From contig NZ_CP034449.1 in the NCBI RefSeq assembly GCF_003952425.1, forward strand, positions 2,046,001 through 2,110,000: 64,000 nucleotides of DNA. The letters are read 5' to 3'. The position numbers were made by a program, and so were the translations under genes. Under the pieces are notes generated by a model. The model was not told the origin of the DNA and made no database searches. It was given only the letters and a program-made list of their open reading frames with translations. Numbering within the stretch: the first letter of the stretch is position 1; the number at the start of each line of letters is the position of its first letter. Source of the stretch: Mesorhizobium sp. M2A.F.Ca.ET.046.03.2.1. Lineage in GTDB: Bacteria > Pseudomonadota > Alphaproteobacteria > Rhizobiales > Rhizobiaceae. Positions 18,659-34,440 of the stretch are shown in pieces.

Positions 18659-20428
18659 CTAAGCTGCTATCCAAGAACCGGCTCTAAACGGCCTCGCGAC
18701 ACTGAAAGTGTCCGGCCGGACACCTGCCTCAACCTGCTTCCACGTCACGGGATGCGCGATCGGGTAGCCGAGGCGGGCTCGCGGAGAAAATGCGCCTACG
18801 GCAGTGTTGCCTCGGCCGTTGCGGAGGTAATCAAGGAAGATGCGTCCTGCGCGTGCTGATGGACCAGCTGATAGAAGGTACCGCTCGGGGTCGGCGTCCA
18901 CAAGGCACTGAGCCAGCGATCTGGCTAGTTTCCGCGCGCTATCGTGAGTCATGTTTGGCGGCAGCGGGGCCGTAAGATGGACGCCTTTGCCGCCGGTCAC
19001 CTTCGGCCAGCTCTCCAAGCCAGCGGCTTCAAAAATCATACGGAGCGACAGCGCGGCCTCCATGACCACATCCCACGGCACGCCTTCGCCGGGATCAAGG
19101 TCCAATACGAGCTGGTCAGCGTGTTCGATGTCGTCGATGGTCGCGTTCCATGGATGAAGCTCGACGGCGTCCATTTCGACCAAGCCAAGCAAACCATCGA
19201 GGTCATCTACCCAGACCCGGACACCTTCGCCGCCTTCGCGCTTTTTGACTTTTAGCTGGTGCACCGACCGTGGAATCGGGGGCAACGGCCCTTTATGGTA
19301 GAACGTGGCACCGTAGGCGTGGCGGACGAGCTTCAGTGGTCGTCGGCCTAGATGAATCAGCGCCCGGTCGGCTACTCGCCGCCAGTATCCCGTCAGCTCG
19401 TCCTTGGATGGCGCGACCGCGTCCGGTAGCAACTGAAGAATGTTCTTTCGCGGGACGCCGTGCTTGCTTTCCACCCGGCGCTTGGAAGGAGCCGGAGGCT
19501 TGGCCGTAATTGGCTGAAGGTCCTCGCGCAATCCCTTGAACACCGCCTCGCGCAAGATGCCGCGGTCCGTCACACCGCTGAATTGCACCTCTGCCAGCAC
19601 CTCTGGTCTGACCCACGTTGCCTTGGGTTTCTTGATGGGTGCCGACAACGGCGACTTCTCGATGATCAGCGGGTCCAGCCGCTCCCGAACCCGTTGGGCT
19701 GCTTGCAAGGTATAGCCGCTTTGCGCCTTCCCGGCATATAGCAGGCGGTCGCCGTCTCGCCTGCCTATGTAAAGCGAGGCGATGCGGCGCGGCTGAGCCC
19801 CGAGCTTCTCAACGAAGGCGACAATCGAGAACGTGTCGCTATTGATGCACTTCACCTTGAGCCAGCTTGTTTGAACGCCGGAACGGTAGGGAGAGTCGGC
19901 TCGCTTCGATACAATGCCCTCCAAGCCCATCCGGCAGGCATGGTCGAACACGTCGCTACCGCCCGCCTCCAAATGCTCGGCATAGGTCAGCGTCGGAGCC
20001 GTTTCTTTCAGCCAGCCATGCAGAGCAGCCTTGCGCTCTATGAGAGGCATCTGTCGCAGATCTCGACCGTTGAGGTGCAAAAGGTCGAATGCAAAGAACA
20101 TGAGCTTTAGCGAGTTCGGGTTTCCCAGCTCCCGTTCGAGGGCTTGAAAGTCCGGCAGCCCAGTGGTGCCGAGGACCACCACCTCGCCATCTAGGATTGC
20201 CGACTTGACCGGCAGGTTGGCAGCCGTCTGAATTATGCGCTTGTAGCGGTGAGACCAGTCGTAGCCCCGTCGGGTGAATGCTCGTGCCTCCCCGCGCTCG
20301 ATGACGATCTCTGTTCGATAACCGTCATACTTGATCTCGTGCAGCCAGTCGGAATCGGCGGGAGCTCTCTCGACCAGCGTCGGCGATTGGAACTCGATGA
20401 AGGTGAGTTGGCCTTTCCGCCTACTCAT
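18659..20428 (-). CDS. ligD: ATP-dependent DNA ligase D (ligase plus polymerase domain)
   Basis: LigD works with Ku in bacterial non-homologous end joining. Residues of about 20-310 are the ATP ligase: nucleotidyl-accepting K33 in HEIKYDGYR, GLEGIVSKR, and WLKVK. The second half is the archaeo-eukaryotic primase-type polymerase domain (LVLDLDPGEGVPW with the metal Asp pair, and WPKVTGGKGVHL). The N- or mid-phosphoesterase domain of the Pseudomonas form is absent. At 589 residues it is a two-domain version, order ligase then polymerase. No ku gene is in the window. A GGAAC-N16-CATT box upstream fits reports that some rhizobial end-joining genes are stress-sigma dependent. Confidence 0.88.
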   Translation of the reverse strand: MSRRKGQLTFIEFQSPTLVERAPADSDWLHEIKYDGYRTEIVIERGEARAFTRRGYDWSHRYKRIIQTAANLPVKSAILDGEVVVLGTTGLPDFQALERELGNPNSLKLMFFAFDLLHLNGRDLRQMPLIERKAALHGWLKETAPTLTYAEHLEAGGSDVFDHACRMGLEGIVSKRADSPYRSGVQTSWLKVKCINSDTFSIVAFVEKLGAQPRRIASLYIGRRDGDRLLYAGKAQSGYTLQAAQRVRERLDPLIIEKSPLSAPIKKPKATWVRPEVLAEVQFSGVTDRGILREAVFKGLREDLQPITAKPPAPSKRRVESKHGVPRKNILQLLPDAVAPSKDELTGYWRRVADRALIHLGRRPLKLVRHAYGATFYHKGPLPPIPRSVHQLKVKKREGGEGVRVWVDDLDGLLGLVEMDAVELHPWNATIDDIEHADQLVLDLDPGEGVPWDVVMEAALSLRMIFEAAGLESWPKVTGGKGVHLTAPLPPNMTHDSARKLARSLAQCLVDADPERYLLSAGPSARAGRIFLDYLRNGRGNTAVGAFSPRARLGYPIAHPVTWKQVEAGVRPDTFSVARPFRAGSWIAA

Positions 20429-21636: not shown

Positions 21637-23211
21637 CTATACCGGCATCGGCCGCGATTGTTCCGTGGCTGCCGGTAGTGGGTCAAGGCGCGGGACCAGA
21701 TCCTCTATTGTATCGTCCAGTAGCGGCGGTTCTTCTTCGGCTTCCTGCTTCGGCTCCACCATGATCAGTCCGACAATGATCAGCGCCAAGGACGCCCAGG
21801 TCAGTATTGGTATTGCTTCACCGAGCAACAGCATGCTCCAGCCGATGCCCGCCGCTGTTACGGCATAAGCGCTCTGGCTGGCGAAAACTGCACCTGTTGT
21901 CGAGATAAGGACCATAAAGAGCAGCATTGCCAGATTGGCAGCCACGGCCATCAGAACCACGATGACGCCGAGGCGTCCCGTTAACAGATCAAGCGGGATG
22001 AAATCATCGTAATAGGCCGCAATCGGGATGAGCAGCGCCACGGAAACGACAAGGGTGATCCCGAACAAAGCGACGCTGTCGATCGCAGCAGGCCTCCGCT
22101 CAGCCAAAAATATATCTTCGGTCGCGTAGGTGACGGGGATGACCATCGCAATCGCAATCCAGAGCCAGCTGGCGGTCATGTCCGCCGGCTGACCATAAAT
22201 CAGAATGATGACGATACCGGCGAGGCCAAGGCCCAATCCGAGGAAACGCTTAACATTTGGCGCCTCGGTCCGCATAACCGCCGCGAACAGAAAAACGACG
22301 AAACCCTCAAGGACAATGACGATAGAGACAATGAAGGCGGGAAGCCTGCTGGCCATCCAGTAAACCAGCACCTGATTTATCACGGAGCTGATAAGCGCGA
22401 GGAGCAGGATGAAGATCCAGTCAGTGCGTGTGAGGCCCTTCAAATTCGGCATGGTCTTGCGGTTCACGCTGATGCCGATGCAGACGGCAGCGCCGATAGT
22501 ATCGATGAGCAAGGCCAATCCCACTGGATGCGCCTCAATGATCGAGGCCATCTTCGAGAGCGGCACGACTAGGCCCCACAGGCCGCCGCACGCCAACAGC
22601 AGCAGGCCCCCACGGAAGGTGCGGATGTTCTGTCGCAACTTGCGTTCGCGCTCGTAAACCTTCTGGGCCATCGTCGAAAACACAGTGGCGAGCTTGCCCA
22701 GACCATCCGTCCGGCTTGCCACGTCCTGGATGCCCAGCTTTGAGGGGTTGAACCGCCCTGACTCCAGGGTCGCAGCCGCCCTTGTCAACTTGGTGACTTG
22801 GCGCAGATACTCCTTCTCGATGTCGCGAAGCCTCTTCTTTTCGATGCAGGTAGCAACCCGCGCCTTGAGAAGGGCGAGTTCGAAGTCCTTGGGCAAGAAG
22901 TCCTCGGCGCCGAGCTCGATGGCATGGACGACGCTGTTCATCTCCTCGTCGAGCGCGGAAATGACGATGACCGGCAGGTCCCGTGTCTTGGCTGACGACT
23001 TCAGCCTTTTGAGCACCTCGAAGCCGTCCATTTCCGGCATCATGATATCAAGCAGTACGAGGTCGAACGGAGCGCCAGCGGTCTGATCGAGAGCGGCCGC
23101 ACCGCTCTCCACTGCCACCGCTTCGTGACCGAGGGTCTCGACCGCTTTCTTCAGCTTGATCCTCACCATCGCGGAGTCGTCGACAACGAGAATCCTACCG
23201 AAGCTGCTCAT
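21637..23211 (-). CDS. Response-regulator receiver fused to an EamA/DMT transporter
   Basis: Residues of about 5-120 are a canonical CheY-like receiver: acidic pair VVDDSAMVR, phospho-acceptor D55 in LVLLDIMMPEMDG, Ser switch in VIVISALD and K108 in FLPKDF. Residues 120-200 are a helical linker. From about 200 on there are ten membrane helices in two similar halves (GGLLLLACGGLWGLVVPLSK; later VFASQSAYAVTAAGIGW and a final LALIIVGLIMVEPK), the layout of EamA/DMT exporters. The protein ends in an acidic, Pro-rich tail. A receiver joined directly to a drug/metabolite transporter is unusual and implies gating or assembly control by phosphorylation. Start chosen at ATG 23211 (TTG 23223 is possible); it overlaps the HPt gene by 17 bases. 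Confidence 0.88.
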   Translation of the reverse strand: MSSFGRILVVDDSAMVRIKLKKAVETLGHEAVAVESGAAALDQTAGAPFDLVLLDIMMPEMDGFEVLKRLKSSAKTRDLPVIVISALDEEMNSVVHAIELGAEDFLPKDFELALLKARVATCIEKKRLRDIEKEYLRQVTKLTRAAATLESGRFNPSKLGIQDVASRTDGLGKLATVFSTMAQKVYERERKLRQNIRTFRGGLLLLACGGLWGLVVPLSKMASIIEAHPVGLALLIDTIGAAVCIGISVNRKTMPNLKGLTRTDWIFILLLALISSVINQVLVYWMASRLPAFIVSIVIVLEGFVVFLFAAVMRTEAPNVKRFLGLGLGLAGIVIILIYGQPADMTASWLWIAIAMVIPVTYATEDIFLAERRPAAIDSVALFGITLVVSVALLIPIAAYYDDFIPLDLLTGRLGVIVVLMAVAANLAMLLFMVLISTTGAVFASQSAYAVTAAGIGWSMLLLGEAIPILTWASLALIIVGLIMVEPKQEAEEEPPLLDDTIEDLVPRLDPLPAATEQSRPMPV

Positions 23212-23584
23212 AACTATCCCCAAGGTGAAAAATGTCTTGAAGCTCCGCCACCGCCGAGTTGAAAGCGCGTCTCGCGTTCTCGATATCTACCACGTCGGGC
23301 GGCTCACCCTTCGCGCATCGGGCTTCGATACCGGCGCAGACTTCGGCTAGCTCGGTTGCTCCCATGTCTCTTGCATTGGATTTCATGGAGTGCGCGGCCC
23401 GGCGCGTCGCGGGCAAATCGGAGGTCGACCCGGATTTTGCCAGGGTCTCCATGATCGACGGTCCCTCGTCGAGGAACGAACTGACGAGTTCGACCACGTC
23501 GGATTCTTCGCCACCGACGAGTTCCCGCAGCTTGTCCAGTGCTCGCCTGTCGATTGCCAAAACATCCCCGAAGCGCAGCGCCAC
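23195..23584 (-). CDS. Histidine phosphotransfer (HPt) protein
   Basis: The 129-residue protein is a free HPt domain: helix LRELVGGEESDVVELVSSFL, then the phospho-accepting H65 in RRAAHSMKSNARDMGATEL, which is the HPt signature, and a third helix IENARRAFNSAVAELQDI. HPt proteins shuttle phosphoryl groups between receivers of hybrid kinases and separate response regulators. Here it lies between the sensor genes and the receiver-transporter gene and overlaps the latter, which strongly suggests the relay kinase, HPt, receiver-transporter. The start codon is GTG at 23584 and lacks a good ribosome site. Confidence 0.88.
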   Translation of the reverse strand: MALRFGDVLAIDRRALDKLRELVGGEESDVVELVSSFLDEGPSIMETLAKSGSTSDLPATRRAAHSMKSNARDMGATELAEVCAGIEARCAKGEPPDVVDIENARRAFNSAVAELQDIFHLGDSYEQLR

Positions 23585-23680
23585 TTGTAAAGTTCATGCG
23601 GGCGCTTGCGGGGTGAGTCTGGTATGACCCTCGCCCGATTGTCAACGGGCCCGTACTGCCTCGCAATCACCCCAACTCCA

Positions 23681-24541
23681 CTATTCGTGGGAAGTGAGAT
23701 CGAAATCGTACCACTTCATGGAGATTGTTTTCAGGGTTCCATCGGCATGCATTTCGTCAACGGTCTTCTTGATGAGTGCCGCGAACTCATTGTCGCCCGG
23801 CAAGATCGCCACGCCATGGGGCACGCGATAGAGCGGCTGGCCGACTATCTTGAACGGCTTGCCCTCCTTGATAAGCGCCATGACTGCCGGGAGGAGATTG
23901 ACCAACCCGTCGATCTCGGCTCCGTCGCCCTTCTCCAAGGCGGCGTACACGTCCTCTTCATGTTCATATGAAACGGTCACCGGATCGTCGATTTTGTAGA
24001 TGAAATCAGGGACTCCAACGATCCCAGGCGGCACCTTCTTCAGGTAGTTCTCGTATTGCGAACCGGCCAGCGCCCCTATCCGCTTGCGGCTTGCATCGGC
24101 CGGCGTACGGATCGTCGTATTATCCCGATGAACGGCCAGCACGCCGATGCCATAATGATATGTTGCCGGGAAAGCGATGTGCTCGGCGCGTTTCTTGGTC
24201 GGTGTCATCCCGCCAACGACAATGTCGTATTTCCCCTGCCAATTCCCCGAGACCTGTTCATCCCACGTTATGATGGAACCATCCGGGTTGGTCACGTATT
24301 CGACCTTGACTCCCATCCGCCGTGCGACCTCACGCAATACCTCGACGTCGAACCCGTCATATTCGCCCTTCTCGTTCTTGATGACCTGTGGCGGCCAGAT
24401 GTCCGGGGCTGGAGAACGCAGGGTTCCGGTCGACCGGATGTGGTCGAGCACCTCACCTGCCAGGCTGTGGTCCGCAAGTGGAACCGATAAGGCCGCCCAG
24501 GCAATTGCGATGGCAATAAGAAGGCGCTTCACAGGATGCAT
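23681..24541 (-). CDS. Family 3 solute-binding protein
   Basis: The start at 24541 has GGAGGTGAGA directly upstream; the frame extends to 24571 but the ribosome site decides. Residues 1-29 are a signal peptide (MHPVKRLLIAIAIAWAALSV). The mature part has family-3 text: GTLRSPAPDIWPPQV, GEYDGFDVEVLREVARRMGV, YDIVVGGMTPTKKRAEHIAF and an end YDFD. These proteins bind amino acids or small polar organics in the periplasm. No ABC permease or ATPase is near; two paralogues and a hybrid kinase are in the same operon, so a sensory role is likely. Confidence 0.85.
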   Translation of the reverse strand: MHPVKRLLIAIAIAWAALSVPLADHSLAGEVLDHIRSTGTLRSPAPDIWPPQVIKNEKGEYDGFDVEVLREVARRMGVKVEYVTNPDGSIITWDEQVSGNWQGKYDIVVGGMTPTKKRAEHIAFPATYHYGIGVLAVHRDNTTIRTPADASRKRIGALAGSQYENYLKKVPPGIVGVPDFIYKIDDPVTVSYEHEEDVYAALEKGDGAEIDGLVNLLPAVMALIKEGKPFKIVGQPLYRVPHGVAILPGDNEFAALIKKTVDEMHADGTLKTISMKWYDFDLTSHE

Positions 24542-24582
24542 TCTCACCTCCATCGTAGAAGTATTCGGCAAACCCTAGCCGT

Positions 24583-25430
24583 TCAGGGAGTTATCATATC
24601 GTATTGATACCACTTCAGTGAAAGTTCCATCAGAGTACCGTCGGAGCGCATTTCATCGATAGTCTTCTTCACCAGCGTGCCAAATTCCTCGTCGCCCGGC
24701 ACAATGGCGATACATGAGGGTGCTCTATACAACGGTTGGCCGACAATTTTTATGGGCCTTCCCTGCTTGATTAACTCAGAATAACTGGAAGGGTGTTTAT
24801 CGTACCATCTATCTTCCCGTCCGAGACAGCGTCATACGCGCCTTCCTCGTGATCAAACTCGACGATTACAGGATCGCCTATTGGGTACGTGATCGGCGGC
24901 ATTCCAAGAATACCGAAGTCTTCTCTCTCCAAGTACTTTTCGTGAACCGAAGCCTTCAGCACGCCAATCCGCTTTCCACTGGCATCGGCCGGGGTCTTGA
25001 TTTGGCTGTTGCTCTGATTGACAGCAAGGACACCCATTCCATACCGGTAAATGGCAGGAAACGAGAGATGTTCGGCTCGCTCTGCAGTAGGCGACATGCC
25101 ACCTACGACTATGTCGTACTTGCCCTGCCACTGGCCAGAGGTTTGCTCCTTCCACGTGATGACGGAGCCGTCAGAGTTTTTGACGTATTCGACTTTGGCA
25201 CCTATGCGGCGGCCGATCTCTCGCAATACCTCCACATCATACCCGTCGATTTCACCATTTGGCTGCTGGATGACGGCCGGAGGCCAGATGTCTGGAAACG
25301 GAGCGCGGAGAATCCCCGTTGCTCGGATGCGGTCGAGTGCCTCACCCGCCACGCTGAACCCTGCGAGTGGAACCGACAAAACCGCCCAAGCAATGGCGAC
25401 TGCAACGAGAAACCGTGTCACTGGGTTCAC
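24583..25430 (-). pseudogene. Second family 3 solute-binding protein, frameshifted
   Basis: It is a close paralogue of the neighbour at 23681. The start is probably GTG 25430 (VNPVTRFLVAVAIAWAVLSV, parallel to the neighbour's MHPVKRLL), with CCAGGGG upstream. The frame holds through KIDGTINTLPVIL and then meets TAA at 24771-24773; in the next frame the text resumes ELIKQGRPIKIVGQPLYRAP and runs to LSLKWYQYDMITP and TGA at 24583. One missing base near 24778 (restoring VIL-ELIKQG) accounts for this. It may be a fresh mutation or a base-call error; if real, only a protein without the last lobe is made. Confidence 0.8.
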
Positions 25431-25678
25431 CCCCCTGGAGTATTTATGCACCGGGTCTGCGAGGTAGGTCGGCCTCGGCTACCGCCCCGGTCAAGGCAAT
25501 CACCTTTTGGAATCCTCTAGCAATCGTATCGCATCGGCCGTAATTTAGCGATAGCGCATATTCGCTCGGCACGCATGTCGAGCATCCACGGGGCAGGCCA
25601 ACACGGCCCTCGGCCTCTTGAGCAAATGTCGAGAATGTCTGACGAGCAATCGCCGGCGGCGGCGCTGATGAGCGCGGC

Positions 25679-26503
25679 TCATCGCGCCGTCGTGTCAATT
25701 CCGAACCACTTCAGAGAAATGAACTTAAGCATTCCATCCTCCCGAAGTCGATCGATGGCTCCCTTCAGTTCGGCAGCGAACTCTGGATCGCCCTTCTCAA
25801 TGGCGATTGCGGTCGGCGTATAGAGCAGCGGCTGACCGATAATCTTGATCGGACGACCCCTTCCGATCTCACTCATGAGTGTGGACAGCGAGTCCACAAT
25901 GCCATCCAGTTCTACACCATTGCCCTTTGCGAGCGACTCGTAGCCACCTTCGCTTGTCTCGAACGGCACGACGACAGGCCGGTCAATCTGATATTTGATC
26001 GGCGGAATATCAAGAATATCGAATGGCTCGCGGGTCAGATATTTTTCATATTCGGAGGACCTCACCGCTCCGATTCTCTTCCCGCTCGCGTCGGCAGGCG
26101 TTCGAATTGTCGTGTTGTCACGATGTACCGCCAGCGAACCAAGGCCGAAGGCATAAACGGCAGGAAAGTCCAGTTTTTCCGCGCGCTGTTTCGTTGGGGT
26201 TACGCTCGGAGAGACGTCCCATGCGCCCTGCCACCTTCCAGATATAACGGCGGAAAATTCCGCCACCTCAAAACGGACTTCGACGCCAAGCCGCCGTGCA
26301 ACTCCCGTCAGGACGTCGACATCAAATCCATCGAAGCTGCCGTCGTCCTTGCGCCAGGAGAAGGGTGGCCACGCCGGATCTACCGCTACCACCAGAACCG
26401 CTTTTTGCCTGACTCGATCGAGGACGGGGCCGGCAGAGCCGGGCATTGACAATGCACATAAGAGAAGCAACGAAACCGTTGCAATTGACATCCGCGACAG
26501 CAT
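25679..26503 (-). CDS. Third family 3 solute-binding protein
   Basis: ATG 26503 begins a signal peptide (MLSRMSIATVSLLLLCALSM) followed by the mature text LDRVRQKAVLVVAVDPAWPP, DGSFDGFDVDVLTGVARRLG and SPSVTPTKQRAEKLDFPAVY, ending KWFGIDTTAR. It is more diverged than the other two: DPAWPPFSW replaces PDIWPP. It starts 40 bases after the kinase gene, and a longer frame from 26566 overlaps that gene, so coupling is possible. Ligand unknown. Confidence 0.85.
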   Translation of the reverse strand: MLSRMSIATVSLLLLCALSMPGSAGPVLDRVRQKAVLVVAVDPAWPPFSWRKDDGSFDGFDVDVLTGVARRLGVEVRFEVAEFSAVISGRWQGAWDVSPSVTPTKQRAEKLDFPAVYAFGLGSLAVHRDNTTIRTPADASGKRIGAVRSSEYEKYLTREPFDILDIPPIKYQIDRPVVVPFETSEGGYESLAKGNGVELDGIVDSLSTLMSEIGRGRPIKIIGQPLLYTPTAIAIEKGDPEFAAELKGAIDRLREDGMLKFISLKWFGIDTTAR

Positions 26504-26543
26504 CGACACGATCTCGTTCCTTTTTGATTGGTCTTCCGGGGAT

Positions 26544-29500
26544 TCACCCGGTTTCGCCAGGTCCATTAGACAAGTTGTTGGAGCGTTGTCCGCTGACCAA
26601 TACCGCTCTTTTGAGTGATGCCACGAGCTCCTCGACGCGCAATGGCTTGCTGAGGTAATCATCCATCCCTGCATCCAGATATCGCTCGCGGTCGCCCGCC
26701 ATCGCATTGGCAGTGAGAGCTACGATGTAAGGTTGGCGTTGCTCGCGGGAACCGGATGCACGGATCAGCCTTGTCGCCTTGACGCCATCCATATCCGGCA
26801 TCTCGATGTCCATCAGAATGATGTCATGCCGCCCTTCGGCATATGAGGAAATTGCCGACTGTCCGTCTCCCGCCAGCTCCGCCCTGTAACCTAGTCGCTC
26901 GAGCACCTTGAAGCCCAGCTTTCGATTGGTGGCGTTGTCATCAACCAGCAGGATGCGAAGCGGAAACTTGGCTGCCATCGCGCTATCAAGAACAGGACTC
27001 TTCGGCTGATCGGGTTTGGCGAAGCGCGTGGGAGCCCCGGCAAAGACCGCCATGAAAGCATTAAGAAGAGGCGATGGCTTGATCGGCTTGGAAAGCACCG
27101 CCGCGAAGTTGACTCCTTCCATCTCCATCTTCTTCTGTTCGGAGATGGGTACCATTGAGCTCAGCAACACCAGCGGAATGCTGCCTTTGTCACCGAGTGC
27201 GCGTATTCCCCTCGCCAGTTCAATGCCGTCCATATCGGGCATGTTCATATCGAGCACGATGACATCAAAGGTTTCGCCGTCTGCAATCATGCGAATGGCG
27301 TCAGAAGGGGACCCGGTTGCATACGGAATCATGCCCCAGGCCTGCGCCTGCAGGGACATTATGCGGCGGTTCGTTGCATTATCGTCGACAAACAGCAGTC
27401 TCCGGCCGGTCAGTTCAACCTTGGCCAGCGACATCTGAGCCCGTTTGGGAGCCGGGGCAGTTGGAGCGCGGATCGTGAAGAAGAAGGTTGTGCCCGTGCC
27501 CTCGACGCTTTCCACCCACACCTCGCCTCCCATGAGTTCTACGAGGTGCTTGCTGATCGCGAGGCCAAGTCCGGTCCCGCCGTAGCGCCGGGTCGTCGAT
27601 GCATCGACCTGGCTGAACGACTTGAACAAGCGGTCCATTCGATCCTTGGGTATGCCGATCCCCGTGTCCCGCACCGCGAACTGCAACATGCACGGGGCCG
27701 CCTGATCTTGGCTTTGTGACCCACCCGTCTCTGCGGCTCCGAGTGAAACCTTCATTGCTGAAAGTACAATTTCTCCCCGGTCGGTGAACTTGACGGCATT
27801 GTTGAGGAGATTGATTAGAACTTGCCGCAACCTGGTATTGTCCGCGACAATTCCTTCGGGGGTTCCGGGTTCCACCACATACCCCAAGTCCAGCCCCTTC
27901 TCCGCTGTTTTTGGGGCGATCAGGTCAATCGCACTCTCAAGGCATTCGCGCAGTTCAAACGGCTTGGGATCAAGCTCCAGCTTGCCGGCTTCAACCTTTG
28001 AGAAGTCCAGTATGTCATTGATGATCGTCAGAAGTGCCTCTGCGCTGCTGTTGATCGTCTCGCCGATTTCCCGTTGCTCCTGGTCGAGCTTGGTGGAGAG
28101 CAGCAAGTTGCTCATGCCGATAACGCCGTTCATGGGCGTGCGGATTTCGTGGCTCATGGTAGCTAGGAAGGTGCTCTTGGCCTCATTGGCGGCCTCGGCG
28201 GCTTCCTTGGCCTGCTGTAGCGCTAGCGACAGCTGCTTGAGCTCGGTGAACAGCTGTGCGTTGTGAAGCGCAGCACCTGCATTGGCGGCGATAGTCGAAA
28301 GCAAGCGAAGCGAGTTGTCGTTGAACATGCCCTCCCGCGCTGTGCTTTGCACGCTGATCACACCCATGGTGCCAAGCCCTGTCTTGATCGGAACGCCCAG
28401 ATAGGAAAGGGCATCCCTGCCGACGGGAGTCGCTCCGATTTCGACGCTGCGCTCGTTTACGTCCTGGTTGATGAGCAGCGGCTCGCCGGTCTCGATGATC
28501 TTGCTTGTCAGACCTTCGCCGAGGGTGAGAGTGGTGAAAGACTCGCCGAATTGGTAAGGAAAATGAATGAGGTTGGTTTTCGGGTCGAGCAGCGCCACAT
28601 ACACGATGTCGGCCTGAAAAATATCGCGCATCTGGTTGCCGATCAGCCGGATGGTGCTATCGAATTCGGCTTCCGCGATGAGCGCCTCGCTGACCTTGCT
28701 GATCGCACCCAGCTCGGCTGCCCGATCCTCGGTTTCCTTGAGCAAGCGCTGAGTTTCGTCGAACAGGCGGGCATTGGCGATGGCTACGCCCATATTGGAC
28801 GCCAGCGTCTGCAACAGGCGCAAATGACCATTATTGAAGGCGCTGGCCTGATAACTCTGTACGCTGAGGACGCCTATAGTCTTGTTACCGGCGCTGATTG
28901 GCACGCCAATATAAGAGGCAGTTCTGTCTTCTTCTTTTGGGAAATATGCGCCTAACTCCCTTCCCTCCGCTGAGGTACGAAAAACCAAGGGTTTGCCTGT
29001 TATTATTACCTTAGAAGTTACTCCTATGCCCATCGGAAATGGCTCAATAGACACATATTTATCTCTATAGTATGCGAATGGAACACGTATTAGGTTCGAC
29101 GCATCATCATGCAATAGTATTTCTGCCACCTCAGTTCCGAAGATTTCACGAACCTTGTCTCCCACGAGGCGAACGATAGTCTCAAGATTCAACGATTTCG
29201 CCATCGATTCACTTACGCTATTTAGAATAGCCAGTTCCGCGGCCCGATCCTCTGTCTCCTTGAGAAGGCGTTGGGTCTCATCGAAAAGGCGCGCGTTGGC
29301 AATCGCAACGCCCATGCTGGTTGAGAGCCCCTGCAACAAATGCATTTGAGCTTCATTGAAGGCGTTCTTCTCGTAACTTTGCACGCTGACGACGCCCAGA
29401 GTCTTGTCGGCTGCGATGATCGGAACGCCCAGATAGGATTCCGTTTCGTCCTCTTCCGTCGGCGCAAGAGCGCCCAACTCATCGGCGCGATCGTTTGAGC

Positions 29501-30848
29501 CGATAACGAGCGGTTCGCCGGACAGGATGATTTTCGAGGTCAGACCCTCGCCCATCGCAAATGGCTCAGGCTGTCGATACCCATTGTAATAAGCATAGGG
29601 GACGGTGATCAGATCGGACTTGTCATCGTGTAAAAGGATTTCTGCGACTTCAACGCTGAATATTTCGCGCAGCTTGTCTCCCACAATGCGGGTTACTGTC
29701 TTCACATTGAGCGTCTTCGCCATCGCCTCGCCGACGGAATTGAGAATAGCGAGCTCCTTCACGCGCCGATTGATTTCCTGCGCATAATAGACAAAGGCCC
29801 GAGCTAGATCCGATATCTCGTCGTTGCCTTTTGTTAGCGTCTCCAATTTCGCAGGAGGGCTCGTTTCCAGCATGGCGAGGCTCAACTTGCGAATGCGGCC
29901 GACGACCGACGCCTGCAAGTAACCAGCAATGAGTATGGCTCCAACCACCGCCAGGACGGCAATCAACGAGAGGACCCGGGCACGCGCCGTCAGCCGGCCG
30001 TCAAGTGCGCTGCGTTGATGGTCAACATCTTGAGCAATCTCTTGAGAAATGACGTCGGCGGCCGCAACCAGCTTGCCGGAGAAAAGCTCGTTGTCAGCCA
30101 ACTGGCCGCGAATATCATCGAACAAGCGGAATAGTCTGCCCTTCAGTTCCACGACGCCCCGGGGGCCCAGCAAGGCCTCTTCAAACTGCCTTGCCAAATT
30201 GGGGTCTGCCGTAGCCAGCAAGGAAATCCTTGGCCGCAGTTCATTCGCCATAGTCTGCAGCTCTTCAGGTTTGCCCGCCGTAGCAAGCCCAAGGGCCGTC
30301 GCAGTCACCTCATTCGTGAGGGCACCATGCAGGGCTAGGACGCCGTCGGCCTTTCCAGATACGGCGATGCGAAAGATACGCTGGAGCAACCCCTCCAACG
30401 CATCTTCGGTTGCAGCACGGTCGTAGAGTGTGGTGGCAAGCGTATCGAGATTCCGGAACAGTTCCGCCGTCGTCTCTTCAATCTCCGAGAGGTCCTTGCT
30501 TGTCTGCGACTTGAGTTTGCCGGTCAGCTCCTGAAGTTTTGACTGCTCCTTGAAACTGAGGAGCGAGAAGTTGAGCAAGGCATCCTGCTCCAGCCCTTTT
30601 GCGTACAGCGATGGCGCCAGGCGTGTGATTGCTTGGGCGCGCTGCCGCAGCTCGGCGGCGGTCTGGATGGCCTCGACTTGGACGTCGGCCACCGAGTCGA
30701 AGCTTTGCCGCAATTCGTTGAAGGATTGGACAGCGATGACGCTGATCGCACCGACCATTAGAGCGAGAGCGACAAGACCTATCATCGCCCGGGCGGCAAG
30801 ACCATGCCAGGGACGATGGGGCCGCTTGCCGTCGCTCGCTTCGCTCAT
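26544..30848 (-). CDS. Hybrid sensor histidine kinase with three GAF and two receiver domains
   Basis: From ATG 30848 (GGCGGGATAT upstream) the protein has 1434 residues: membrane helix at about 20-42, a helical periplasmic part of about 250 residues, a second helix at about 292-316, HAMP, three tandem GAFs (about 366-520, 538-690, 711-863), HisKA with H900 in [17 protein letters not shown], HATPase with NLLNNAVKF and DTGIGI and GGTGLGLAI, then two receivers with D1200 ([11 protein letters not shown]) and D1347 ([11 protein letters not shown]). The all-helical periplasmic domain resembles the plan of TorS, which senses through a periplasmic binding protein. No HPt is fused, and a separate HPt gene follows. 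GAF2 is AT-rich relative to the rest, suggesting a domain swapped in from another source. Confidence 0.9.
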
Positions 30849-31147: not shown

Positions 31148-31600
31148 TTACTTGGCCTTTGGCCCAGATGAACGCTTTTTCACGGCGCTGGTCGACGCCT
31201 TGCGCCCTAGTCCGCTAGCCTTAGCCAGCTGTGAGCGGGTTGCAGCATAGTTCGGCGCAACCATCGGGTAGTCGACGGGCAAGCCCCATTTGGTGCGGTA
31301 TTCGTCGGGCGTTAGACCGTAGTGCGTGCTCAGGTGGCGCTTGAGCGACTTGAACTTCTTTCCGTCCTCAAGGCAGACCATGTAGTCCGGCGTCACCGAC
31401 CTCTTCGGATTCACGGCGGGCGTCAGTGCAGGCTTCGGCTCTTCGAACGGCTGCCCAATCTTTGACAGCGACGCGTTCACACTCTCGATCAACTCTGGCA
31501 GTCCCGCCACCGGAACGGCATTCTTGCTGACATACGCAGACACAATATCTGCGGTCAGTTCGATCAGAGCAGCGTGAGCGTGATCGTGTTCGTCCGACAT
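31148..31600 (-). CDS. mucR: MucR/Ros-family zinc-finger regulator
   Basis: MucR proteins are alphaproteobacterial H-NS-like regulators of exopolysaccharide, motility and symbiosis genes. The 150-residue protein starts at ATG 31600 (GAGGAA upstream) and has the N-terminal oligomerisation part LIELTADIVSAYVSKNAVPV, then the Ros zinc finger YMVCLEDGKKFKSLKRHLST followed by HYGLTPDEYRTKWGLPVDYP and a basic tail. The zinc finger has a single Cys where Ros has two (VCLEDG), a variation that is common in MucR homologues. The gene is next to the recombinase module and may be one of several paralogues. Confidence 0.88.
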   Translation of the reverse strand: MSDEHDHAHAALIELTADIVSAYVSKNAVPVAGLPELIESVNASLSKIGQPFEEPKPALTPAVNPKRSVTPDYMVCLEDGKKFKSLKRHLSTHYGLTPDEYRTKWGLPVDYPMVAPNYAATRSQLAKASGLGRKASTSAVKKRSSGPKAK

Positions 31601-31842
31601 CGTGTAAAATTCCTCAGTTTTGAAACAATCGAAGCCCAACTGCTTCTTACCTGCCATTTCGCAAATAGCTAGCCGTCAAGGCACATTCGGCTGGACTTCC
31701 TTGCGCGCGCAAGCATTGGTGTGGGGAACGAAGAGGCGGTATCCATCGCCACCAAAACCAAGGTCTCTCTCCAGCCCGCCAGCCGGGCTCAAGTCAGTAC
31801 AGGCGCCGGATTGGCCGGCACTGACACTGAAGGAGAACGATC

Positions 31843-32286
31843 ATGGCAACACTCGGCACCGATCAAAGCACGGAATCCGACAACGACAAGCTTCAGATCC
31901 CGCCGGAGCCGCGTGAGCACATTTGGGACGCGCTCGAGACCCCGCCCAAGCGGGCGAAGAAGGCGAAGTCGCCCAAGAAGAGAGCTCGTGACGTTGACGC
32001 TGGTGCGGAGGCGGGACCGGCAAAGCCACCGAAGGCTGCGGCCCGCAACGAGAGCAAGCAGAGCAAATCGGACCTAGTGCTGTAGAAACTTCGCCTGGCC
32101 AAAGGCGCCACCATCGAGATGCTGAAGGAGGTCACAGGCTGGCAGGCACACTCGGTACGGGGCTTCTTGTCGGCGGTGGTCAAGAAGAAGCTTGGCCTCA
32201 ACCTGGTCAGCGATGTCGGCAAGGATGGCGTCCGCCGCTACCGCATCGATGACGGCGCGAGGGCGCCTAAGCCTCATGCGCGCTAA
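31843..32286 (+). pseudogene. DUF3489 protein gene with an in-frame amber stop
   Basis: ATG 31843 has AAGGAG upstream. The N-terminal 80 codons are a Lys/Ala/Pro-rich linker; then TAG at 32083-32085 interrupts. The same frame continues [40 protein letters not shown] and GVRRYRIDD to a TAA at 32284, which is the DUF3489 winged-helix-like domain. AAG to TAG is one substitution. The domain would be lost unless translation restarts. DUF3489 genes regularly precede a DUF2924 gene and a recombinase gene in alphaproteobacteria, as here. Confidence 0.8.
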
Positions 32287-32749
32287 GCTCGACATCGAAG
32301 CAGCGGTCGCCGCCTTAGGCGACCTCTCCCGCGAGGATCTCGCAGCCCAATGGGAGAAGATCTACAGATGCTCGCCACCGAAAGGTGTCAGGCGTGAGCT
32401 TCTGATCAGGGCAGCAGCCTGGCATCTTCAGGCAAAACGTCTCGGTGGATTTTCCACCGAGACGCGTCGCATGCTCAGGTCCGCCATAGACCGGGTCGAG
32501 AAGAAGGTCGCCGACCGTGACAGGCAACCTAGCGTTGGCACTGACGACATCAAGGTGACTGCCGCTCCAAAGCGCAAACTAGTTTTGCCAGGCGCACGGT
32601 TGGTCCGTGACTGGAACGGCAAGACCCACATCGTCGACGTGCTCGAGGATGGCTTCGTCTTTGAGGCCAAGGTTTATCCCTCGCTATCGTCGATCGCGCG
32701 CAAGATCACCGGCGCACATTGGTCCGGTCCGAGGTTCTTTGGCTTATGA
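32276..32749 (+). CDS. DUF2924 protein
   Basis: The start at ATG 32276 overlaps the DUF3489 stop by 11 bases. The 157-residue protein has the DUF2924 plan: helical N-terminus [20 protein letters not shown] with [20 protein letters not shown], and a C-terminal beta part [20 protein letters not shown] ending [20 protein letters not shown], which resembles a small nucleic-acid-binding fold. DUF2924 proteins are encoded with serine recombinases, probably as accessory or specificity factors; this is inference from synteny. It overlaps the recombinase gene by four bases. Confidence 0.85.
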
Positions 32750-34440
32750 GCAGCAACGCGACACGTCGCCTGCGCTGCGCGGTCTACACTCGTAAATCGA
32801 GCGAGGAAGGCCTCGATCAGGAATTCAACTCGCTCGACGCCCAGCGCGAGGCCTGTGTGGCGTTCATTGCCTCACAGGTCGGCCTTGGCTGGAAGCTCGT
32901 CCCTGATCGTTATGACGATGGTGGCATCTCAGGTGGAACGATGGAGCGCCCCGCTCTGCAGCGGCTGCTTCAAGACATTCGCGACAAAAAGATTGATGTA
33001 GTGGTCGTCTATAAGATCGACCGCCTCACCCGCTCGCTGATGGACTTTTCGAAGATCGTCGAGATCTTCGATGCCAGCTCGGCGTCATTCGTCTCTGTGA
33101 CCCAGCAGTTCAACACCACCACATCGATGGGCAGGCTGACGCTAAACGTGCTTCTGTCCTTTGCGCAGTTCGAGCGCGAGGTCACAGCCGAGCGCATCCG
33201 CGACAAAATCGCGGCATCGAAGAAGAAGGGCATGTGGATGGGCGGTGTCGTGCCGCTCGGCTATCGCGTGGAGCATCGCAAGCTAGTCATCGACGACGGC
33301 GAGGCGAAGATCGTTCGGCTTCTCTTCAAGCGCTACCTTGTGCTGAAGTCAGTGCGCGACCTTGCTGACGAAGCGGCGCGGGACAGTCTCACGACGCGCA
33401 CCCGCGAGCGCCAGGATGGGACCCTTGCTGTGACGATGCCGTTCGGCCGCGGCAATCTTTATCACCTGCTCTCGAATCCCATCTACATAGGCAAGATCAA
33501 GCACAAGGATCAGGTCCACGACGGCGAGCACGAGCCGATCATCGCAGGCCCGGTGTTCAAAGAGGCGCTGGCGCTCCTGGCGTCTCAAGCACCACGCCGG
33601 AGGAGCAAATCGAACGTCACTCAGCCGCACCTTCTCACCGGACTTCTCTTTGACGAACATGGCGAGAACCTTCGATCGGTGCATGCCAACAAGCGAGGCG
33701 TTCGCTATCGCTATTATGTCTCAAAACAGTTTGTTGATCAGCGGCGCCGCAGCTCCGACGGATGGCGTCTTCCTGCCGATGCAGTTGAATCAGTCGTTGA
33801 GCTTCAGCTGAATCGTATTCTCAGCGATCACAGCCAAATCGCTGATTTGATTCGGCGTTGGGGAGGTCCCGGCGAGATTCAATACGCGATGAGCCGCGCG
33901 GCTGAAGTCAGGACTGCCTGGAGCTTCGAGACTGCCGACGCTAAGCGATCGCTTTTTCAGAAACTCGCTCGCCGCATCGCACTTGGTCAGAAGGCATTGA
34001 CCGTCGACATTGATTGCCGGGGACTATCCGAACATCTGCTCGATAGGGCTTTGCCATCCGACGGCGGCGCTGAAACGCTGTCGATCACATGCCCATTTGA
34101 AATCAAGCGACGCGGCGTCGAGATGCGCATCGTACTAACCGATCCCTCGTCCAACGGCTCGGAGCCGGATGCAGCGTTGATCGACGTGGTCTATCGCTCT
34201 CAGCTTTATCTCCATCAACTCACCGATGGCTCGGGTCGAAGCCTGACGGAGATCGCCAGCTTGAACGCGACCACCGTCTCTGAGGTGAGCAGGCTGCTGC
34301 CGCTGGCGTTTCTCTCGCCGAAGATCGTGTCGAAGATTATCGCCGGCATCCAGCCAGTCGAACTCACAGCCCATGGGCTGTCGCGCCTGTCCCGCCTTCC
34401 CCTCGCATGGTCCGATCAATCTGCCCTCCTCGGCTTCTGA
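32746..34440 (+). CDS. Large serine recombinase
   Basis: The resolvase/invertase catalytic domain occupies about residues 10-150: RCAVYTRKSSEEGLDQEFNS with nucleophile S18, YDDGGISGGTMERPALQRLL, VVYKIDRLTRSLMDF and FEREVTAERIRDKIAASKKK. Then a recombinase domain (LVLKSVRDLADEAARDSL) and a zinc-ribbon-like segment follow, ending in a Leu-rich helix-turn-helix C-terminus. At 564 residues it fits the large serine recombinases of mobile islands. It is the last gene of the DUF3489-DUF2924 module. About 200 bases past its end lies one copy of the direct repeat at 34642. Confidence 0.9.
   Translation: MSSNATRRLRCAVYTRKSSEEGLDQEFNSLDAQREACVAFIASQVGLGWKLVPDRYDDGGISGGTMERPALQRLLQDIRDKKIDVVVVYKIDRLTRSLMDFSKIVEIFDASSASFVSVTQQFNTTTSMGRLTLNVLLSFAQFEREVTAERIRDKIAASKKKGMWMGGVVPLGYRVEHRKLVIDDGEAKIVRLLFKRYLVLKSVRDLADEAARDSLTTRTRERQDGTLAVTMPFGRGNLYHLLSNPIYIGKIKHKDQVHDGEHEPIIAGPVFKEALALLASQAPRRRSKSNVTQPHLLTGLLFDEHGENLRSVHANKRGVRYRYYVSKQFVDQRRRSSDGWRLPADAVESVVELQLNRILSDHSQIADLIRRWGGPGEIQYAMSRAAEVRTAWSFETADAKRSLFQKLARRIALGQKALTVDIDCRGLSEHLLDRALPSDGGAETLSITCPFEIKRRGVEMRIVLTDPSSNGSEPDAALIDVVYRSQLYLHQLTDGSGRSLTEIASLNATTVSEVSRLLPLAFLSPKIVSKIIAGIQPVELTAHGLSRLSRLPLAWSDQSALLGF

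Follow-up and report, generated by a model that had tools for sequence, protein, structure and literature searches.

The subject of this analysis is a stretch of 64,000 nucleotides (the window) from Mesorhizobium sp. M2A.F.Ca.ET.046.03.2.1 (contig NZ_CP034449.1 of assembly GCF_003952425.1, positions 2,046,001–2,110,000, plus strand), the genome of which is a single contig of 7.37 Mb. On the minus strand of the window lies an operon that encodes, in order, a hybrid histidine kinase, three family-3 solute-binding proteins, a histidine phosphotransfer (HPt) protein and a fusion of a receiver domain to an EamA transporter of the drug/metabolite transporter (DMT) type, henceforth REC-EamA. Two-component systems are mostly known for controlling genes, second messengers or motility. 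An initial annotation described this operon as a phosphorelay whose only visible output is a membrane transporter, and proposed that periplasmic ligands are read by the binding proteins and the kinase.

Genes and domains of the operon

The order and shared strand of the six genes were borne out by the positions of their open reading frames (ORFs), and the domain assignments by Pfam: three GAF domains, HisKA, HATPase_c and two Response_reg domains in the kinase, SBP_bac_3 in all three binding proteins, Hpt in the HPt protein, and Response_reg plus two EamA stretches in the fusion. All of the phospho-acceptor residues that had been named are in place. The kinase, numbered from the ATG at position 30848, has two transmembrane (TM) helices around a periplasmic domain, followed by the GAF domains, HisKA (H900), HATPase_c and the two receivers (D1200 and D1347); H65 of the HPt protein and D55 of the fusion complete the set. 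These are the parts of a multi-step phosphorelay—a hybrid kinase with HisKA, HATPase and receiver domains, acceptor His and Asp residues, and an HPt His in the same operon—and we regard the composition of the relay, like the assignment of its sensor, as well supported. Analysis of ORFs and Pfam domains found no DNA-binding response regulator among the genes of the operon.

Although a sequence profile search with the sensor domain returned nothing useful, fold comparison of its predicted structure matched the outer domain of the kinase to the TorS fold. The candidate view that this domain is a fold without known relatives was rejected on that ground.

Table 1. Coordinates of the operon's features and of the second module (window positions, except in the last row).
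Feature	Position	Strand	Basis or remark
Hybrid histidine kinase, 1434 aa	26544..30848	-	ORF, Pfam, acceptor residues, TM prediction
Kinase periplasmic sensor domain, residues about 41-291	29976..30728	-	all-helical, TorS-like
Family-3 solute-binding protein 1	25679..26503	-	probable start 26503; ORF reaches back to 26707; Pfam SBP_bac_3
Family-3 solute-binding protein 2, broken, 226 aa	24771..25451	-	Pfam SBP_bac_3
Family-3 solute-binding protein 3	23681..24571	-	Pfam SBP_bac_3
HPt protein, 129 aa, H65	23195..23584	-	Pfam Hpt 5e-13; His position; H-x-x-K motif kept in related modules
Receiver-HAMP-like-EamA fusion, 524 aa, D55	21640..23211	-	Pfam, homologue family, AlphaFold2 model (mean pLDDT 89.8)
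Receiver domain, residues 1-120, phosphoacceptor D55	22852..23211	-	residue conservation
HAMP-like linker, residues 121-200	22612..22851	-	helix 112-150, connector, helix 170-225 continuing as TM1
EamA/DMT transporter domain, residues 201-487	21751..22611	-	both repeats present
Second module	C1 about 4991470-4998019 (L009:8471-15020)		soluble kinase, HPt, REC-EamA

The initial annotation was otherwise confirmed only in part. Among the gene overlaps, the one between the HPt and REC-EamA genes stands (17 nt, 23195–23211), whereas the one between the kinase gene and binding protein 1 is probably not real: the ORF of the latter (342 aa) begins within the kinase gene, yet what looks like a signal-peptide start, MLSRMSIATVSLLLL (judged by eye), lies at 26503, past the kinase stop. 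Binding-protein gene 2, the middle one, is disrupted: the frame ends at 24771, and C-terminal sequence is found in another frame, at least at 24711–24589. Two of the three binding-protein genes are therefore intact. All three are unremarkable members of family 3, with amino-acid binders as close relatives; the genome has 20 SBP_bac_3 matches, and the presence of three in this operon was judged to be beyond chance. The arrangement is also not unique, as the same genome holds a second kinase-HPt-REC-EamA module, without binding-protein genes, the REC-EamA protein of which is 78% identical to that of the window. The broken gene and the second module had both been overlooked, as had the resemblance to TorS and the HAMP-like linker described below. 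Promoter-like sites (6 vs. 4.1 expected) and terminator-like sites (10 vs. 9.5 expected) occur at chance level.

Receiver, linker and transporter of the fusion protein

Homologues of REC-EamA numbered 1852 at E ≤ 1e-20, of which 120 were listed; Response_reg and EamA are both present in 118 of the 120, and both the protein and its loci have their closest named relatives in Mesorhizobium. The receiver has the residues expected of a response regulator (an acidic pair, an acceptor Asp, a Ser/Thr and a Lys). Among 69 aligned proteins picked out of the 120, D55 and S85 are conserved in 69/69 and K108 in 68/69, and the acidic pair, where present, in 67/67 (D11) and 66/67 (D12). A strict receiver motif was found in 62 of 67 cases in the related loci; of the five others, three have FLDIVMP in its place and two are truncated at contig ends. 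Of the families and structures searched, PleD is nearest to this domain. The HPt motif is similarly constant: H[SGAT].K occurs in 54 of 56 HPt matches, the exceptions being L075 (AHEFK) and the HPt of a different kinase in L067 (L numbers denote loci of the scan described in the next section).

Between receiver and transporter lies a linker that resembles a HAMP domain. According to the AlphaFold2 model, the last receiver helix extends to residue 150, and a single helix then spans linker and TM1. A receiver protein from an Anaerolineae bin (L112) is 56% identical to the fusion over residues 1–200, and its linker scores 35.7 bits against HAMP, for which the Pfam cut-off is 25; a homologous linker is thus recognized as HAMP. 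The linker profile matched the HAMP domains of kinases at 81.5% in local mode, as compared with 0.2% for the HisKA region, 0.2% for HPt and no more than 1.9% for 40 column-shuffled HAMP alignments. The linker alone gave sub-threshold matches to models of SiaA, NarQ and BaeS. It is conserved about as well as the receiver and better than the transporter. HAMP domains in receptors relay signals from the membrane to the cytoplasm.

Loci L101–L123 carry receiver plus HAMP-like fronts and come from Chloroflexi, Gemmatimonadota and other bins. Ten such fronts from other phyla were scanned, and they precede guanylate cyclase, Ser/Thr kinase, HATPase or no further Pfam output domain.

Both Pfam and the predicted structure identify the C-terminal part of the fusion as two EamA repeats with the DMT fold. 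In its modeled structure, the EamA part resembles the triose-phosphate translocator and LicB; a sequence search of this part against solved structures gave nothing relevant. Many positions are nearly invariant in TM1, TM4 and TM9, and TM3, TM7 and TM8 are variable. Its best family name, carboxylate/amino acid/amine transporter, is sub-threshold (38.7 bits vs. 230.2). An acidic stretch at the C-terminus of the transporter (window 21637–21750; consensus PK.EAEEEPP) recurs in many of 18 aligned homologues but not in every one.

Recurrence of the module and exchange of its inputs

Related loci were gathered by scanning named genomes with two receiver-sequence patterns, not by neighbors; the best 80 of 269 relatives were kept, giving 79 loci. 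To these we added the window and the second module of its genome (L009). We counted 59 loci, all with an EamA match (the window, L009, L045–L100 and L104), and left out 22 loci without one (L101–L103 and L105–L123, L115 being cut by a contig end), as well as L040 and L041, which repeat L045 and L052. The initial annotation had asked whether REC-EamA homologues adjoin kinase and HPt genes, and they do: in 53 of the 59 loci, a hybrid kinase and an HPt are both encoded no more than 4 kb away from REC-EamA, the HPt being fused to the kinase in five of these. Where an HPt gene lies upstream, REC-EamA follows closely and often overlaps it, although the overlap may be overstated because ORFs were taken from the first start codon. 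The idea that the arrangement is a one-off was thus rejected. Six loci are without the module: L046 and L095, where the upstream part is missing because the records begin at or inside the fusion gene, and L091, L092, L093 and L099. The locus labels are mostly Alphaproteobacteria; besides these there are one Pseudomonas, several Granulosicoccaceae bins and a bin labeled Rhodothermales. Linker-EamA matches at E ≤ 1e-45 were found in 0 of 189 other genomes of the class. Among the matches listed in a separate search, full-length matches occur in 3 of 37 genomes of the genus (its own included) and in 0 of 24 genomes from other families; the module is therefore rare and patchy.

The initial annotation had also asked whether binding-protein genes accompany the module, and the answer depends on the kinase. 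Of 39 modules with a membrane kinase, 38 have a periplasmic-protein gene no more than 2 kb away, as against 0 of 14 with a soluble kinase (Fisher p 6e-12, ignoring relatedness). As a general feature of the module, binding-protein neighbors were accordingly rejected. The sole membrane kinase without a partner (L078) begins at a contig end, and the partner in L077 was counted despite being weak (30 bits). A kinase was classed as a membrane kinase if one or more TM helices were predicted (a single one in L073 and L078) and as soluble if none was. We set the cut-offs ourselves (a hydropathy of 1.7 in a 19-residue span, distances of 2 kb and 4 kb), and the hidden Markov models (HMMs) for the partners were seeded from these same loci.

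Moreover, the kind of partner follows the length of the kinase's outer loop. Loops of 457–470 aa go with DctP (7 loci, in one of which just a single TM helix was found), of 147–160 aa with Tll0287 (8 loci), of 113–127 aa with an SBP3-like family (14 loci), and of 239–312 aa with SBP_bac_3 (7 loci) or SBP_bac_5 (1 locus). The SBP3-like family (L061:5822–6574 and 13 further loci) weakly matches the ectoine-binding protein EhuB; two members scanned singly (L061 and L094) had no Pfam match. On the REC-EamA tree, the input class changes 13 times, as compared with 32.1 times in shuffles and a minimum of 6.

The window itself exemplifies such an exchange. Its REC-EamA clusters with those of soluble-kinase modules (10-row set, SH-aLRT 97), and the GAF part and kinase core of its kinase also match mainly soluble-kinase modules (about 62–80% and 65–83%, respectively, among the best 14 listed), the sole membrane-kinase match among those being L054 (78% and 83%). 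For the outer domain, by contrast, the matches are to Rhizobium setariae (L055) and Mesorhizobium soli (L056), at 46%. L055 likewise has three binding-protein genes, and the window's proteins match them at 75%, 58% and 75%. Across loci, then, the input is swapped while the output is kept. From these comparisons, sensor and binding proteins seem to move as a single cassette, and this co-movement suggests a joint function. Good support for the earlier claim that the kinase takes its input from the binding proteins comes from the association with membrane kinases, the matched classes and the TorS-like fold of the sensor.

Some loci have further peculiarities. Two REC-EamA genes each are present in L062, L064, L068, L081, L086 and L091, and five of these pairs adjoin a kinase and an HPt (L091 is without HPt); they look as if a single relay fed two transporters. 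Near the pair in L091 (122–3478) lies a kinase with about 13 predicted TM helices ahead of its kinase domain, and this may be a sensor kinase of the transporter type. In L070 (5675–6658), a fusion of a receiver with a GNAT acetyltransferase domain adjoins the module.

Bracketing the operon in the window are a LigD repair gene (18662–20428) and a ROS/MUCR gene with a serine recombinase (31151–34440), possibly marking a mobile region; GC content has no clear break at the operon.

Proposed control of a transporter by the relay

We favor, at a probability of roughly 60%, a phosphorelay informed by binding proteins and ending on a transporter that is gated by phosphorylation. Ligand-loaded family-3 proteins would dock on the TorS-like outer domain and alter kinase activity, and a signal from inside the cell may enter through the three GAF domains in the cytoplasm. 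The phosphoryl group would pass from H900 to D1347 and/or D1200 in the receivers of the kinase, then to H65 of the HPt protein and on to D55 of REC-EamA. Phosphorylation of D55 would shift the last receiver helix, which is continuous with the HAMP-like linker; this coupler offers a physical path for phosphoryl-controlled transport. Because the second linker helix is continuous with TM1, we propose that transport of a small metabolite would be opened or closed without new transcription. The interpretation in the initial annotation thus holds in part: the input side stands as described above, and we infer that the transporter is the final acceptor of the phosphoryl group and that its activity is controlled thereby. 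That this represents a general output class—a phosphorylated receiver gating a transporter via a HAMP-like element run in reverse, from cytoplasm to membrane, with exchangeable binding-protein/sensor cassettes—we consider an even bet.

Several observations weigh against this reading. The linker of the window falls short of curated HAMP scores, with no Pfam HAMP match at E ≤ 1, and its profile aligns to HAMP at only 5.6% in global mode; among the EamA relatives, HAMP stays under the Pfam cut-off (16 of 69 match at E ≤ 1, the best at 0.0016). The EamA part is below every NCBIfam cut-off, and the model of the sensor was built from 7 sequences. When relatedness is taken into account, independent contrasts on supported branches were 4/4 in the expected direction (sign test p 0.125), p 0.05 being unreachable because there were just four. 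L091, L092, L093 and L099 lack the module despite usable flanks. The transporter is the only visible output in the window, as had been claimed, but not everywhere: an extra receiver protein adjoins the module in L070 (acetyltransferase), L079, L082 (guanylate cyclase) and L100 (guanylate cyclase, by family count), a second set of two-component genes is present in L067, and a receiver gene lies 3.4 kb away in L057. Trans_reg_C, a DNA-binding domain, was found in 4 of 73 neighbor proteins, by family count and not assigned singly. Those 73 were our own selection (204 candidates had been listed) and included some already-known receiver and binding-protein genes; their Pfam scan, which gives family counts only, agrees with the kinds of partner described above. 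Two HMMs (RECcyc and RECgnat) drifted to general receiver-linker proteins and were not used in counts. Given the Trans_reg_C neighbors and the other receiver outputs, transcriptional outputs nearby are therefore possible at some loci.

The same extra receivers lend some weight to a branched relay, in which REC-EamA would be a phosphate sink or one branch among others, the HPt also passing phosphate to regulators, DNA-binding or not, whose genes lie elsewhere; it is common for an HPt protein to serve more than one receiver. We think this unlikely, as the window operon is without a DNA-binding response regulator and the module recurs as kinase-HPt-REC-EamA. A touch more probable, and the main rival, is a flow in the reverse direction: EamA as a transceptor that reports its substrate through the HAMP-like linker to the receiver, which would drain or supply phosphate by way of HPt and tune the kinase, the real output lying elsewhere. 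Such a flow would match the direction of HAMP signaling in receptors, would have a parallel in sensor-side fusions of transporter and kinase (the SLC5-STAC kinases such as CrbS), and could use the further receiver outputs at some loci, e.g., the guanylate cyclase of L082. Yet a candidate input is already present in the periplasmic-protein genes of nearly all membrane-type modules, the domain scan gave no other receiver protein adjoining the module in most of the 59 loci, and REC-EamA closely follows the HPt gene, with the caveat on overlaps given above. The ordinary, amino-acid-binder-like character of the binding proteins might mean that they are parts of an ATP-binding cassette (ABC) importer, placed among signaling genes by chance. 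This we regard as improbable: the three flanking genes scanned (LigD, ROS/MUCR and resolvase) include no ABC gene, the periplasmic-protein genes accompany membrane-bound and not soluble kinases, and four other periplasmic-protein families occupy the same place. Least credible of all is that the EamA part is a mere membrane anchor for the receiver, its transport function lost; the variable TM3, TM7 and TM8 would fit, but both repeats are present, the model folds like working transporters, and TM1, TM4 and TM9 hold many nearly invariant positions.

If relay-gated transport is correct, a receiver joined to a transporter by a HAMP-like coupler would be a fast route from an outside signal to flux control, and the loci would exemplify natural modularity, with sensors exchanged around a constant effector. 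It would also make HAMP signaling from cytoplasm to membrane a testable question, with the HPt protein and REC-EamA as separable parts for measuring phosphorylation-gated transport.

Chains of the triose-phosphate translocator and LicB match the fusion from residue about 190 onward only, and to our knowledge neither has a receiver or HAMP part. In the accessible portions of the literature on receivers with EamA/DMT domains, response-regulator outputs, fused transporters and binding-protein kinases, we found no such system, which is weak evidence because only open-licence papers were covered. The terms "EamA" and "receiver domain" shared a paper in two cases in the available text of that literature: a marine study, in which they are separate families (PMC12487129), and a wheat quantitative trait locus study. 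The available text of an archaeal response-regulator census does not contain the word "transporter" (PMC5847659).

The TorT-TorS-TorR system of E. coli resembles that of the window in three respects: its kinase has a helical outer domain of the TorS type flanked by two TM helices, its periplasmic binding protein is separate, and its relay has several steps. TorS has an internal HPt, and its relay ends on a DNA-binding regulator; the window, in contrast, has a separate HPt, several family-3 binding proteins and a DMT transporter as its end point. TorT is reported to be bound to TorS in vivo (PMC3795677). The SLC5-STAC sensor kinases (CbrA, CrbS) likewise combine transporter and two-component parts in one polypeptide (PMC5715377, PMC9100948). 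Their transporter, however, is on the sensor/kinase side and their output is transcriptional, whereas in the window the transporter is joined to the receiver with which the relay ends. Finally, response regulators with outputs other than DNA binding (PleD-type, REC-cyclase, REC-kinase) share features with REC-EamA: its receiver is nearest to PleD among the families and structures searched, and in other phyla receiver plus HAMP-like fronts also stand ahead of guanylate cyclase, Ser/Thr kinase or HATPase domains; the output in the window, unlike theirs, is a membrane transporter.
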